Source: Acidimicrobiales bacterium
GTDB lineage: Bacteria > Actinomycetota > Acidimicrobiia > Acidimicrobiales > RAAP-2
Direction: 5' to 3'
DNA: 33,645 nt
NCBI GenBank assembly: GCA_017883065.1
Contig: JADGOG010000016.1
Coordinates: forward strand, 1-33,645
In this document: positions 3,071-7,838 of the stretch, piece after piece
How the letters are laid out: each line of letters opens with the position of its first letter
Numbering within the stretch: position 1 is the stretch's first letter
Translations under genes and position numbers: made by a program
The notes under the pieces: generated by a model
What the model saw: only the letters and a program-made list of their open reading frames with translations
Told to the model about the DNA's origin: nothing
The model's database searches: none

Positions 3071-4216
3071 TCAGCGACGAAGCGAGCGCAGTCCCCCCAC
3101 CACTCCGGAGAAGGCGGCGGCGAAGGAGTCGATGTCGGCATCGGTGGTCGACCAACCCACCGACAGGCGTAGCGAGCGCTCGGCATCCACGCCCATCGCC
3201 TCGAGGACCGGGGACGGTTCGAGAGTCTCGGACGAGCACGAGGACCCGGAGTGGGCGGCGATGCCGGCCTGGTCGAGGCCGAGGAGGATCGGCTCGGCCT
3301 CGACGCCGTCGATGCCCAGGCACACCAGATGGGGGAGTCGACCGTCAGGATCGCCGAAGACGGTCACTCCCTCGACAGCCCGGGTGGCGGACGACAGCCG
3401 CTCCGTCCGATCAAAGGCCGTCGCCGCCTCGTCGGCCAGGGTCGAGGGGTCGGACAACCGGGCGGCTGCGGCGCCGAAGCCGATGGCCCCCAGCACGTTC
3501 TCGAGGCCGGCCCGCCTGGCCCGCTCCTGTTCACCGCCGACCAGCAGCGGCTCGATCCTCAGGCCACGGCGCACCACCATGGCGCCGATGCCGACTGGGC
3601 CTCCGAGCTTGTGGGCCGAGATCGACACGAGGTCGGCATCGAGAGCCCCGAGGTCGGTGGGGAGGTGACCGGCGGCCGCCACCGCATCGACGTGGACCAG
3701 AGTGCCGTGCCTTCGTGCGAGTTCCACGATCCGGTCGACCGGTTGGACGGTGCCCACCTCGTGGTTGGCCCACTGGCAGTGGAGGAGCGACGGTCCGCGC
3801 CCGTACTCCGCACGGCACCGGTGGACGGCATCATCCATCGCCGCCGGGTCGATCCGGCCCACCCGGTCGACGATGACGTTCACGACTGCGGCGGCTCGGG
3901 CGGAGGCATCCCGGACGGCTGAGTGCTCGACCGCGGCCAACACAACCGGTCCCGGATCTGCACGGGTCACTCCCCATACTGCGGCGTTGATGGACTCGGT
4001 ACCGCCCGAGGTGAAGACGACCTGTCGTGGGCGAACACCCACCAGCCCCGCCACCTGCTCCCTCGCCTCTTCCAACGCGGCCCGGGCCATCCGGCCCTCG
4101 GTGTGCACCCGGCCCGGATCGGCGGTCACCCCGGTGGCCTCCCATGCCTGCATGGCCGCACGGGCCTCAGGACGGAGCGGCGTGGTCGACGCGTGGTCGA
4201 GGTAGTGACGGGCCAC
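3071..4216 (-). CDS. Class I (NifS/IscS-type) cysteine desulfurase
   Basis: A 381-residue PLP-dependent aminotransferase-fold enzyme that converts cysteine to alanine and passes persulfide sulfur to Fe-S clusters or tRNA thiolation. It opens with YLDHASTTPLRPEA. The cofactor site includes TSGGTESINAAV (69-80), the VEHSAV histidine (H98), D177 in HVDAVA and the PLP lysine K203 in ISAHKLGGPVGIGA. The sulfur-accepting cysteine is C327 in SGSSCSSETLEPSPVL, on a long class I loop. The start is GTG. It lies 15 bp downstream of the SufR-like regulator, so the two probably form an operon. No IscU/SufU scaffold is adjacent within the window, so its acceptor is unknown. Confidence 0.93.
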   Translation of the reverse strand: MARHYLDHASTTPLRPEARAAMQAWEATGVTADPGRVHTEGRMARAALEEAREQVAGLVGVRPRQVVFTSGGTESINAAVWGVTRADPGPVVLAAVEHSAVRDASARAAAVVNVIVDRVGRIDPAAMDDAVHRCRAEYGRGPSLLHCQWANHEVGTVQPVDRIVELARRHGTLVHVDAVAAAGHLPTDLGALDADLVSISAHKLGGPVGIGAMVVRRGLRIEPLLVGGEQERARRAGLENVLGAIGFGAAAARLSDPSTLADEAATAFDRTERLSSATRAVEGVTVFGDPDGRLPHLVCLGIDGVEAEPILLGLDQAGIAAHSGSSCSSETLEPSPVLEAMGVDAERSLRLSVGWSTTDADIDSFAAAFSGVVGGLRSLRR

Positions 4217-4231
4217 GACCGGGCTCGCCGA

Positions 4232-5011
4232 TCAGACCACGGCTGCGCAGGAGTCGTCGCCACGGGCCCGTGACGACGACAGCACCACCGGCACCATCCC
4301 TCCGGCATCCTCGCCGCACAGTCCGGCCAGCAACCCCTTCACCATGCCCCGGTCCACGGCACACAGCACCGGGTACTGCGAGGCCGCGTTGCCGAAGGGA
4401 CAGTTGTCGGCCACCACCGCCGTGCTGGTGCCCTGGTCCTCGGCGTGGGCCGCGAACCCGTGGGCGGTCAAGGTGTCGGCGATGGCGTGCATGGCGGTGC
4501 GCAGCGACCTCTGACTGTCGCCGGGGGACATCTGGCCGGCCAGCGTGCGGCCGTACTCCTCGCCCACCCGCTCGGCCATGCCTTCGGCCGCCACCGGACC
4601 CAGCAGCTGCAGCGCCTCCTGCAGCAACAGGACGAGCAGATCGTCGCGACGGGTGAGCAGATCGAGGGTGGGATCGTTGCCTATGGCCCGGAACCGCTTG
4701 GACGGCCGGCCGGCGCCGTTGCCGGCCACCCGCTCCATGGTCACCTCGACGTAGCCCCCGGTGGCCAGCCGCTCGAGATGGTGTCGGGCCACGTTGGGGT
4801 GGAGCGAGAACCGGGCGGCCACCTCGGAGGCGGTCGCGCCGGGATTGGACCGGACGAACAGGTAGATCTCCCGCCGGGTCGGATCGCCGAAGGCGGCGGT
4901 CACCGCGGTCACTGCCGCCGAGAAGTGGTTGTCCGCCTCGGTTGAGTCCACCTCGACCGCTTCCTCGACACCCTTGAGCGCCAGTACAGAGCTGTCCGAG
5001 TCCGGTTGCAC
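4232..5011 (-). CDS. sufR: SufR-like Fe-S-sensing winged-helix transcriptional repressor
   Basis: A 259-residue regulator. Residues about 33-110 form an ArsR/DeoR-like winged helix (AFGDPTRREIYLFVRSNPGATASEVAARF, then HPNVARHHLERLATGGYVE). The C-terminal half carries four cysteines, C204, C217, C232 and C255 (spacings x12, x14, x22), in the region where SufR proteins hold their Fe-S cluster. SufR represses Fe-S assembly genes when clusters are sufficient. The GTG start at 5011 has no Shine-Dalgarno, but TAGACT lies 7 nt upstream, so the mRNA is probably leaderless. A 7-bp-arm dyad covers that -10, suggesting autorepression. It is first in line with the cysteine desulfurase and divergent from the ApbC-like gene. 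SufR is the closest match I recognise; in other actinobacteria this family leads sufBDCSU operons, which are not seen here. Confidence 0.82.
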   Translation of the reverse strand: MQPDSDSSVLALKGVEEAVEVDSTEADNHFSAAVTAVTAAFGDPTRREIYLFVRSNPGATASEVAARFSLHPNVARHHLERLATGGYVEVTMERVAGNGAGRPSKRFRAIGNDPTLDLLTRRDDLLVLLLQEALQLLGPVAAEGMAERVGEEYGRTLAGQMSPGDSQRSLRTAMHAIADTLTAHGFAAHAEDQGTSTAVVADNCPFGNAASQYPVLCAVDRGMVKGLLAGLCGEDAGGMVPVVLSSSRARGDDSCAAVV

Positions 5012-5033
5012 GTCACCTAGTCTACCGGTGACG
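5011..5033. promoter_or_regulatory. Divergent promoter/operator between the SufR-like gene and apbC
   Basis: An inverted repeat with perfect 7-bp arms, CGTCACC (5011-5017) and GGTGACG (5027-5033), spans most of the 47-bp intergenic gap. Its centre contains TAGTCTA (5018-5024). Read rightward this gives TAGTCT, a -10 for apbC with a start about 28 nt upstream of its ATG. Read leftward it gives TAGACT, a -10 placed 7 nt from the regulator's GTG. One bound repressor would block both. The arms are seen directly; binding by the SufR-like protein is inferred from position. Confidence 0.65.
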
Positions 5034-5058
5034 GCGAAATTCCCCGAGGAGATGCTGG

Positions 5059-6228
5059 ATGTCCATCGACGAGTCCCAGGTCACAGCGGCAGTCGCCGCG
5101 GTGACCGATCCCGAACTGCGACGTCCGCTGGGGGAGCTGGGCATGGTGGGCCCGGTCCAGGTGAAACGCAAGCGGGTGACCGTGGAGCTGGCCCTCCCCG
5201 TGGCGCACTACCCCCAGGTCGATGAGTTGGTCCGGCGGGTCCGCCAGGCGGTGGGACCGCTTCCCGGGGTCGACGAGGTGGCGGTGGAACAAGTGGTCAT
5301 GGACGAGGAACCCCGTGCCCGGCTGCGCATGCTCCTCCGAGGCGAGCCGGTGGACGGTGGGACCCAGCACGCGCCGGACGACCACGGCCATGCCCACGGC
5401 GGCCAACTCGGTCACGAGGAGGGACGCCCCAACCGGTTCATGCTGCCGCGATCGAAGACCCGGATCCTCGGGATCTCGTCGGGCAAGGGTGGCGTCGGCA
5501 AGTCGTCGGTCACGGTCAATCTGGCCGTCTCGCTGGCCCGCTCCGGCTACGACGTCGGCATCCTCGACGCCGACGTCTACGGTTTCTCGGTCCCCAAGAT
5601 GCTCGGCGTCACCACCGACCCGCTGATCATCGGGGACCTGGTGGTGCCACCCACCGCCAACGGGGTCCGGTGCCTGTCGATGGGCTACTTCGTCCCCGAC
5701 GACACGCCGGTGATCTGGCGCGGGCCGATGCTGCACAAGGCGCTGGAGCAGTTCCTGGTCGACGCCTACTGGGGCGAGCCCGACTTCCTCTTGATCGACA
5801 TGCCCCCGGGCACCGGGGACGTCACCCTCTCCCTGGGCCAGTACCTGACCAAGACGGAGGTCTACGTGGTGACCACCCCGCAGGCCGCCGCCGAGCGGGT
5901 GGCCCAGCGGTCTGCCTACGCTGCCCGCAAGCTCAAGCTGGCGGTGCGGGGGGTCATCGAGAACATGAGCTGGTTCACCGGGGACGACGGGAAGCGCTAC
6001 GAGCTCTTCGGGGCGGGCGGCGGCGAGCAGCTTGCCGGCGAGCTCGGCGTGCCGCTCCTCGCCCAGGTCCCCCTGGTCTCCGCACTCCGCGAGGGAGGCG
6101 ACGAGGGGATCCCGGTGGTGGTGGCCGATCCCGAGTCCGAGACGGCGGGTGTCTTCGACCGACTGGCCCAGGCCATCGTCGACCTCGGCCCCGCCCGGGT
6201 CTACCGCTCGGAGCTGACCCTCCGCTAG
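5059..6228 (+). CDS. apbC: Mrp/ApbC-family P-loop Fe-S cluster carrier with N-terminal MIP18 (DUF59) domain
   Basis: A 389-residue protein. Residues about 5-95 are a MIP18/DUF59 domain (VTDPELRRPLGELGMV). A linker at 100-120 is His-rich (THAPDDHGHAHGGQLGHE in part). The P-loop NTPase domain has the deviant Walker A ISSGKGGVGKSSVTVNLA (about 139-156), then ILDADVYGFSVPKMLG and DFLLIDMPPGTGD. Mrp/ApbC proteins bind and transfer [4Fe-4S] clusters. The CPxC pair that usually follows the ENMS motif is missing: the text reads ENMSWFTGDDGKRYELFGAGGG, as in several actinobacterial homologues. The start at 5059 is supported by GAGGAG at 5046-5051, 7 nt upstream. It is divergent from the SufR-like gene and shares its promoter dyad. 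Confidence 0.92.
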   Translation: MSIDESQVTAAVAAVTDPELRRPLGELGMVGPVQVKRKRVTVELALPVAHYPQVDELVRRVRQAVGPLPGVDEVAVEQVVMDEEPRARLRMLLRGEPVDGGTQHAPDDHGHAHGGQLGHEEGRPNRFMLPRSKTRILGISSGKGGVGKSSVTVNLAVSLARSGYDVGILDADVYGFSVPKMLGVTTDPLIIGDLVVPPTANGVRCLSMGYFVPDDTPVIWRGPMLHKALEQFLVDAYWGEPDFLLIDMPPGTGDVTLSLGQYLTKTEVYVVTTPQAAAERVAQRSAYAARKLKLAVRGVIENMSWFTGDDGKRYELFGAGGGEQLAGELGVPLLAQVPLVSALREGGDEGIPVVVADPESETAGVFDRLAQAIVDLGPARVYRSELTLR

Positions 6229-6488: not shown

Positions 6489-7838
6489 TCAGCCCCAGTC
6501 GGCCCTGGTCCGGGGCATCCCACTGAACCCGTCCGGTTCTGGAACGACGCCGAGGACCTGGTGGATGGCCAGACCGCCATCGTCGAATCCGTTTGCCGAG
6601 GCGGCCATGTAGAGCCGCCAGATGTTGGCCCGCGAACGTCCGACCAGCGCCACCGCCTCCTCCCAGTGCTCCTCGAGATTGGACACCCAACGGTGCAGGG
6701 TCCGCGAGTAGTGCTCGCGCAGCGACTCGACGTCACGGACCTCGAATCCAACCTCCTGCATGGCCCGGATCACTGCCGACACGTCGAGCAGTTCGCCGTC
6801 GGGGAACACGTAGCGTCCGACGAACGTCCTGCGGCCGAGGAACGATCCACCGGGCTTCGAGATGGCATGGTTGAGCAGCCGTCCGGTCGGGGTGAGCAGT
6901 CCGAACAGGGTCTCGAAGTAGCGGGCCATCCGGGACGCTCCCACGTGCTCGAACATCCCGATCGAGGAGATGGCGTCGAAGGTCTCACCGTGCAGGTCGC
7001 GGTAGTCCTGCAGGCGGATCTCCACCTGGTCGTCCAGGTGGGCCTCGGACACCCGACGCCTGGCCTCGTCGACCTGCTCGCGGCTGAGGGCAACTCCGAC
7101 GACGGTGGCCCCGTGCTGACGGGCGGCATGCATGGCCATCGATCCCCAGCCACACCCCACGTCCAACAGCCGGGCCCCGGGCCGGGTGTGGAGACCCAGC
7201 TTGCGGCAGATGAGCTCGTGCTTGGCGGTCTGGGCCTCCTCCAGCGTCGTCTCCGCCGACAGAAAGCGGGCACACGAGTAGGTCATGGCCGGTCCGAGCA
7301 CCAGGCGGTAGAAGTCGTTGCCCACGTCGTAGTGGTGGCTGATCGCTTTGGCATCGCGGGCCGGGGAGTGGAGCCGGCCGGCCGGCCTGGCCTCCTCGGG
7401 CGGAGGCGGAAGGGGCGGCCCGAGGGCTCCGAGCCGCCGCGCCGCGTCGAGTATGGCGGGCAGGGTCCTCAGCCCAATGGACCGGAGGTCACGCGGCGTG
7501 GAGCCCTGGAGCACCCGCAACAAGGAGTAGAGGTCGCCGTCGACTGTGATGTCACCGGACACGAAGGCCCGGGCCACACCCAGCTCGCCCGGTGCCCACA
7601 TGATCCAGCGCAGCGCGTCGGGCGAGCGGATCTCCAGGGTCCCCGACCCGTCCGTGGGCCCGATGCCGCTCCCGTCCCAGAATTCGAACCGGACGGGAAG
7701 GTCCGAGCCCACCATGGCCCTCACCAGGGGGGCGAGCGCCTCGGCGGCGCTCCCCGGAGGAGCAGGAACCGGGTCGATCGACCGACCGACCGACCGACCG
7801 ACCCGCAGATGTGGCCGGTGCGAAACATCGGTGACCAT
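6489..7838 (-). CDS. cfa: Cyclopropane-fatty-acyl-phospholipid synthase family SAM methyltransferase
   Basis: A 449-residue enzyme expected to add a methylene (or methyl) group from S-adenosylmethionine to unsaturated phospholipid acyl chains at the inner membrane face. Recognised motifs are SHHYDVGNDFY (167-177), SAM motif I LLDVGCGWGS (224-233) and GMFEHVG (294-300), in the normal order for the family; the C-terminal part matches in layout. The ATG at 7838 is supported by GAGGAGG, 5 nt upstream. Codons 13-20 are encoded by six perfect GTCG units, giving VGRSVGRS; because the unit is four bases, a change of one unit would shift the frame. M42 is an in-frame fallback start with a poor ribosome site. 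It follows the DUF2252 gene on the same strand after 99 bp. Confidence 0.92.
   Translation of the reverse strand: MVTDVSHRPHLRVGRSVGRSIDPVPAPPGSAAEALAPLVRAMVGSDLPVRFEFWDGSGIGPTDGSGTLEIRSPDALRWIMWAPGELGVARAFVSGDITVDGDLYSLLRVLQGSTPRDLRSIGLRTLPAILDAARRLGALGPPLPPPPEEARPAGRLHSPARDAKAISHHYDVGNDFYRLVLGPAMTYSCARFLSAETTLEEAQTAKHELICRKLGLHTRPGARLLDVGCGWGSMAMHAARQHGATVVGVALSREQVDEARRRVSEAHLDDQVEIRLQDYRDLHGETFDAISSIGMFEHVGASRMARYFETLFGLLTPTGRLLNHAISKPGGSFLGRRTFVGRYVFPDGELLDVSAVIRAMQEVGFEVRDVESLREHYSRTLHRWVSNLEEHWEEAVALVGRSRANIWRLYMAASANGFDDGGLAIHQVLGVVPEPDGFSGMPRTRADWG
7779..7802 (-). repeat. Tetranucleotide microsatellite, six GTCG units, inside the cfa coding sequence
   Basis: On the minus strand the tract is (GTCG)6, followed by ATCG; with the flanking bases it also forms the palindrome GGTCGATCGACC at 7772-7783. 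It covers codons 13-20 of cfa. The unit is not a multiple of three, so slippage by one or two units would truncate or frameshift the protein near its N-terminus. Confidence 0.9.

Follow-up and report, generated by a model that had tools for sequence, protein, structure and literature searches.

A probable bidirectional sufR/mrp promoter in Acidimicrobiia whose putative SufR operator appears to be kept at suf and lost at sufR/mrp in one family

Introduction

SufR regulators are described as dedicated to the suf locus, with M. tuberculosis and S. avermitilis named as examples in PMC8593673. According to four reports, the cyanobacterial and Streptomyces proteins bind CAAC-N6-GTTG (PMC4755962, PMC11995493, PMC13421787, PMC8593673). 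For M. tuberculosis SufR, PMC6034842 states that C203, C216 and C244 are needed, and describes it as autorepressing and as leaderless, the latter being what is predicted also for the regulator studied here. The second point of comparison is provided by bidirectional promoters, such as those of Warman, Grainger and colleagues. According to PMC12825309, polymerases exclude each other at these promoters, and nothing was known about how they are controlled. Our literature search, which left most subscription papers outside, returned no report of SufR in Acidimicrobiia nor a comparative study of the SufR regulon in actinobacteria.

We analysed a stretch of 33,645 nt from an Acidimicrobiales bacterium (assembly GCA_017883065.1, contig JADGOG010000016.1), hereafter the window. 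Like SufR of Synechocystis, Streptomyces avermitilis and M. tuberculosis, its regulator has a winged-helix N-terminus, a C-X12-C pair plus a distal cysteine, and a link to suf. Compared with the M. tuberculosis residues, the first cysteine pair is equally spaced (C203/C216/C244 there, C204/C217/C255 here), while 37 residues separate the second and third cysteines, versus 27 in M. tuberculosis. Only the first pair of the cyanobacterial C-X12-C-X13-C-X14-C arrangement, as given in PMC8593673, is matched. Unlike in those systems, the gene lies beside a cysteine desulfurase gene and a divergent mrp and not at suf, and the putative operator reads CTAY-N4-RTAG instead of CAAC-N6-GTTG.

As in the bidirectional promoters of Warman, Grainger and colleagues, the promoter has a TANNNTA core with a symmetric -10, the opposed starts being predicted 18-20 bp apart here, and a regulator is encoded on one flank, soxR/soxS and acrR/acrA being parallels (PMC12825309, PMC10268837). 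It differs from them in belonging to a GC-rich actinobacterium, in having one transcript predicted to be leaderless, and in that the core is kept over many families, with one genus using two separate promoters. The carrier resembles the described ApbC/Mrp proteins in combining the same NUBPL-type P-loop NTPase with FeS_assembly_P; what differs is its divergent SufR-type partner.

Genomes and loci compared

In the family survey a regulator match was obtained in 122 of 150 genomes. We read 90 family loci, the window's own included; the remainder are mostly from genus g10 or are weak paralogue matches. Fifty-four of the 90 lie outside genus g10 and 36 inside it. The near loci (n = 23) come from genera g1, g3, g5, g20 and g21, and the outer loci number 31. 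The named relatives among the best 80 listed are Acidimicrobiales/Acidimicrobiaceae assemblies, many labelled palsa, bog or Chersky. From the 189 non-family genomes with a match, 96 loci of 41 other families were read, a sample in which distant families are under-represented. All the loci are relatives, and the counts given below are not independent of one another.

The sufR/mrp locus

The locus consists of two genes on the minus strand and one, preceded by a Shine-Dalgarno-like sequence, on the plus strand:

3071-4216, minus strand: NifS/IscS-type cysteine desulfurase (PF00266, 1e-57; TIGR03402 the best model, under its cut-off)
4232-5011, minus strand: SufR-like regulator of 259 aa, with a winged helix and C204/C217/C255
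5046-5051, plus strand: GAGGAG, Shine-Dalgarno-like, 7 nt ahead of the mrp ATG
5059-6228, plus strand: Mrp/ApbC-type Fe-S carrier (PF10609, 1.4e-82; N-terminal FeS_assembly_P, PF01883, 1.2e-11)

The mrp gene diverges from the regulator gene in 90/90 family loci and in 93 of the 96 loci of other families. The desulfurase gene directly follows the regulator gene in all 54 family loci outside g10, in none of the 36 within it, and in 62/96 loci outside the window's family; desulfurase and regulator are probably on one transcript. The mrp transcript is predicted to be leadered, given its ribosome-binding site, and that of the regulator to be leaderless.

The protein had been called SufR-like from its sequence, and this description is borne out by the N-terminal winged helix (PF12840, 2.9e-11, 43.6 bits against a cut-off of 27) and by the three cysteines C204, C217 (C-X12-C) and C255, which are invariant in 123/123 aligned regulators. 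The curated equivalog model TIGR02702 (SufR_cyano) scores 27.7 bits, far under its cut-off of 178.8, and solved structures searched by sequence yielded nothing at E 0.1. We detected no second full-length SufR-like protein in the window's genome. Paralogues of about 30% identity, present in six relatives, were considered as suf-linked SufR and rejected: no sufB, sufD, sufS or sufU adjoins them in the stretches examined. We propose that the regulator is the SufR-type protein of the class Acidimicrobiia.

A predicted leaderless start and a putative shared -10 core

The sequence-only reading had pointed to a dyad at 5011-5033, with perfect 7-bp arms and a 9-bp centre (TAGTCTACC) containing TAGTCT when read rightward and TAGACT when read leftward. 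This dyad was found exactly as described, with the following elements:

5011-5017, strand not applicable: left arm CGTCACC, pairing 7/7 with the right arm; limited to one clade
5018-5024, strand not applicable: TAGTCTA, opposed overlapping -10 hexamers, putative bidirectional promoter core
5018-5023, plus strand: rightward -10 TAGTCT for mrp/apbC, predicted transcription start at about 5030-5031
5019-5024, minus strand: leftward -10 TAGACT, 7 nt from the GTG (5011-5009), predicted transcription start at 5011
5027-5033, strand not applicable: right arm GGTGACG, pairing 7/7 with the left arm; limited to one clade

The leftward hexamer was followed through all loci by scanning offsets of 5-9 nt between hexamer and start codon, with the reading frame taken as that of the HTH. 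A TANNNT lies 6-7 nt (9 nt in one locus) before an in-frame GTG or ATG in 90/90 family loci. The start of the regulator varies from 14 to 77 codons ahead of the residue aligned to residue 36, and the spacing of the hexamer hardly moves with it. In the other families, TANNNT is found at 6-8 nt in 83/96 loci, as compared with 1-7 of 96 for seven control sets of offsets; the 13 loci without it are mostly from distant families. The fixed spacing in the family makes the leaderless initiation of the regulator, already suggested by the first reading, well supported at the level of sequence.

The same seven bases also contain the rightward hexamer. TAGT[CG]TA is present in 54/54 family loci outside g10, which supports the two opposed, overlapping -10 hexamers, and in 1/36 inside g10; among the 83 leaderless loci of other families (from the 96 loci of 41 families), 69 have TANNNTA. 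Counting an additional rightward TANNNT only if it stood at least 14 nt ahead of the mrp start, we found outside g10 that the shared hexamer provides a rightward TANNNT in all 53 measurable gaps to mrp, with an additional one in 4/53. In g10, the shared rightward hexamer occurs in 1/35 measurable gaps and a separate one in 35/35, usually GGTANNNT (31/35); this loss may count as a single event. The measured gaps of other families behave likewise: those with TANNNTA carry the rightward hexamer in 58/58 cases and another one in 6, and of the 7 gaps lacking TANNNTA, 5 have a separate rightward hexamer. Shared and separate hexamers are thus complementary. It is mainly on this pattern that we base the use of the shared hexamer by mrp, and the pattern upholds the earlier assignment of the rightward hexamer to apbC.

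Alternatively, TAGTCTA could be kept solely as the leftward -10, mrp having another promoter. The distance from the hexamer to mrp would fit this idea, being 44-126 nt in outer genera as against 38-42 nt in near genera. However, the first T of the heptamer, which serves only the rightward hexamer, is kept in 54/54 loci and is lost in 35/36 loci of g10, a genus with a separate hexamer. We regard this alternative as extremely improbable. TAGTCTA is best taken as the candidate core of a bidirectional sufR/mrp promoter, with starts predicted at 5011 and about 5030-5031; the -10 hexamers overlap symmetrically, as in the 18-bp class of bidirectional promoters. No -35 elements were recognised by eye at the promoter. 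In one g10 locus (L084) TAGTCTA is kept and the mrp match lies about 680 nt away, the gap being enlarged or rearranged.

The arms of the dyad

In the first reading, CGTCACC/GGTGACG serve as the operator through which a single dimer of this clade's regulator would shut both promoters. The perfect 7-bp arms are indeed unique in the genome at this spacing; with a spacer of 7-11 bp, the exact arms occur at a single other place in the whole genome (spacer 8). Allowing up to 3 mismatches, there are 11 matches in the window against 7.27 expected, a count reached by 13/100 shuffles, so that only the perfect copy is notable. A search of the window's genome with CACGTCMCCTAGTSTACCGG at up to 3 mismatches gave no second copy; the reversed control has one.

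The first reading named missing arms in the gaps of orthologues as a finding that would count against it, and this applies to the 31 outer loci among the 54 with the shared hexamer. Pairing is raised in the near loci (mean 4.43 of 7; expected 1.88, other offsets at most 2.83), where 8/23 retain 6 or 7 of the 7 pairs and L009 and L012 carry perfect variant arms, CGTCCCC/GGGGACG. On the other hand, the arms are not paired in the 31 outer loci (mean 1.48 of 7) or in the 36 g10 loci (1.69 of 7). Even in g1 (13 sequences), the right-arm columns average 10.7 of 13, barely above the 9.5 of the following 13 leader columns. In addition, this genome has a different dyad in its sufB promoter (see below). 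Pairing is high only in the nearest genera, and the arms are therefore a feature of one clade and were ruled out as a general operator; that the regulator uses them as its operator within this clade appears very unlikely to us, and they may have some local role there. With their axes offset by one base, at 5022 for the arms and 5021 for the TAGTCTA heptamer, the two do not form one symmetric element. Judged from these alignments, the conserved part of the dyad is its centre, not its arms.

A putative SufR operator at suf

It had been supposed that the desulfurase and the carrier act here instead of a classical suf operon. This proved wrong: PF01458 identifies two proteins (SufB/D) on another contig of the same genome, in a stretch that comprises sufB, a small ORF, sufD, a Rieske-type ORF, sufC, SufU and SufS. 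The end of a second sufC adjoins SufS. The genes other than sufB and sufD are ones that we take to be sufC, SufU and SufS from sequence similarity.

In this genome, CTATCTGTATAG stands 55 nt ahead of sufB. The promoters of 90 suf loci were collected in three sets of 30 genomes (the first set was matched in 29/30), and 22 of the 90 were dropped, the match falling short of the SufB N-terminus or being less than 60% identical; the divergent SufB-like genes L357, L359, L394 and L395, among those dropped, have no dyad. CTAY-N4-RTAG occurs within 160 nt upstream of sufB in 60/68 of the promoters kept, the genome of the window included: 21/23 in the family, 22/23 in families that bear the operator at the regulator, and 17/22 in others. 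Dinucleotide shuffles of the same promoters (50 rounds) gave a mean of 0.32 and a maximum of 2. Among the eight promoters missed, several are one or two letters off the dyad. The dyad with its common flank, CTAYNNNNRTAGNNNAAAT, yields 91 sites in 44/50 genomes, the reversed pattern 3, and the window's genome has one such site, at sufB. The strict dyad-plus-AAAT is absent from 5/21 family genomes (g7, g15, g10), and the bare dyad is present at their sufB.

Of 20 chosen sites located away from sufB and the regulator, 18 are at or just upstream of sufC-sufS and one is by sufD. The CAAC-N6-GTTG motif was found in 0/173 regulator gaps and 0/30 suf loci scanned, nor is it in the window or in the suf stretch of its genome; we rejected it as the operator here. 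The likely SufR operator, as far as its distribution tells, is instead CTAY-N4-RTAG, and the regulator would be tied to it by location and by the lack of a better SufR candidate in the genome.

A further alternative is that some other regulator binds CTAY-N4-RTAG, or that the dyad is an element of the core promoter or of an RNA, with the window's regulator acting elsewhere. The dyad is unlike the CAAC-N6-GTTG given for known SufR in PMC11995493 and PMC13421787, and it overlaps or abuts -10 elements. However, in 57/96 loci of other families it stands by the regulator start, and the remaining sites examined are nearly all at suf; no rival full-length SufR-like protein was detected in the genome. 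We consider this alternative distinctly unlikely and retain CTAY-N4-RTAG as the putative SufR operator.

Three side observations concern the suf loci. In L459-L478, sufC directly precedes sufS in 18/20 stretches, with an operator-like site at the sufC start. In a genome of the same genus (L467:1641), a site lies near a gene for a 289-aa HTH_67 protein (PF21863) with no suf gene, possibly an extra target or a chance occurrence. Finally, the SUFBD_core match of three genomes (G074, G012 and G013; L396-L398) is split at about position 88 within frames of 1244-1711 aa, an intein-like arrangement; an intein in SufB is mentioned for M. tuberculosis Rv1461 in PMC6034842.

Presence and probable loss of the putative operator at sufR/mrp

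In the other families, CTAY-N4-RTAG precedes the leftward -10 of the regulator at a distance of 0-1 nt in 57/96 loci, representing 26/41 families, and anywhere in the regulator gap in 66/96. The composite of operator and -10, CTAYNNNNRTAGGTANRAT, gives 83 sites in 81/296 genomes of the class, 74 of them within 160 nt of a regulator match. The nine others are four in f29 genomes, those in G394, G404 and G354 (regulator place not listed), and those in G280 and G322, which are second copies near contig ends. In the window's family, by comparison, none of the 90 sufR/mrp gaps contains the dyad, each scan having started at mrp and ended 60 nt inside the regulator.

We placed this difference on a quick tree of 123 regulators, a short search with many open forks in which the named outgroup does not form one side of any branch. 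The family (27 rows) has a support of 86 (SH-aLRT). The dyad is borne by 3/6 outgroup rows, 3/4 rows of f28, L225 and L191, a near relative. It is missing from the family as well as from L179 and L193, which neighbour it. The dyad label needs 18 changes on this tree, and losses have thus recurred.

A trace of the operator may persist in the window:

5022-5040, plus strand: CTAC-CGGT-GACG-GC-GAAAT, possible decayed operator; weak, with the left half and the flank intact and the right half not

This stretch is in the register of CTAY-N4-RTAG-NN-GAAAT, and it can be regarded at best as a decayed operator from its sequence. One could suppose that the regulator still binds it weakly, in a loose autoregulation; a low-affinity sufR site is reported for Synechocystis in PMC6034842. 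The CTAC half-site and the GAAAT flank are in the exact operator register in the window, L004 and L005, and register 0 scores best in 13/23 near loci. However, the matrix gives the remnant 2.8, whereas none of the 118 training sites falls under 18.1, and negative scores were obtained for the 22 remaining near loci. Outer and g10 loci, too, most often have register 0 as their best, with median best scores that do not rise above those of shuffles. Moreover, the CTAC half belongs to the -10, and no operator is required to explain why it persists. Residual binding is, all considered, somewhat unlikely, and the best reading of the comparisons is a bidirectional sufR/mrp promoter that has lost its SufR operator in the family of the window.

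Residue 81 of the regulator (window about 4769-4771, minus strand) adjoins the putative recognition helix. It is K in 57/57 operator loci and R in 27/27 family representatives (89/90 family loci). Since the dyad retained at suf in the family is the same, we made no use of this difference.

Proposed mechanism

The conserved hexamers, their spacing to the starts and the distribution of the operator are all observed; from them we infer the transcription starts, the competition of polymerases, the binding of SufR and its Fe-S sensing. TAGTCTA would be a single place for RNA polymerase, with overlapping -10 hexamers on both strands: leftward it would give the leaderless sufR-desulfurase transcript, and rightward the mrp/apbC transcript with its ribosome-binding site. 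Two polymerases would be unable to occupy the core together, resulting in mutual exclusion. In many families of Acidimicrobiia, a SufR dimer on the adjacent dyad may block both directions as well as the suf promoters, and SufR acting at sufR/mrp and at suf would complete a regulatory loop that responds to Fe-S supply. For the family of the window, sufR/mrp would be run by the shared promoter alone or with a weak remnant site. The operator is kept at suf and lost at sufR/mrp, from which SufR most likely controls suf in trans.

We hold this explanation as a whole, from the shared core and the leaderless SufR-type regulator to the CTAY-N4-RTAG dyad kept at suf and lost at sufR/mrp, with good confidence. 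More tentative, and in our estimation falling short of an even chance, is the idea that in the family lacking the sufR/mrp operator the promoter is free of repressor and competition between polymerases determines how much regulator and desulfurase is made relative to carrier, SufR shutting both directions elsewhere in the class. As for the sequence-only reading, its opposed hexamers, leaderless start, SufR-like protein and mrp hexamer stand, while the arms as operator and the replacement of suf do not. The dyad is real and appears to deserve a partly different interpretation, in which the centre and the leaderless start gain strength and another putative operator and regulon emerge.

These comparisons point to a SufR-type regulon in a poorly studied actinobacterial class, with an operator that differs from the established one and with Mrp among its members, and to a bidirectional promoter kept at the sequence level over many families. 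The natural variants, in which the operator is lost or the core is replaced by two promoters, make the control of bidirectional promoters testable.

Further along the window, six GACC units are arranged in tandem at 7780-7803, inside the start region of the ORF 6489-7838, which presumably encodes a cyclopropane-fatty-acid-synthase-like methyltransferase.
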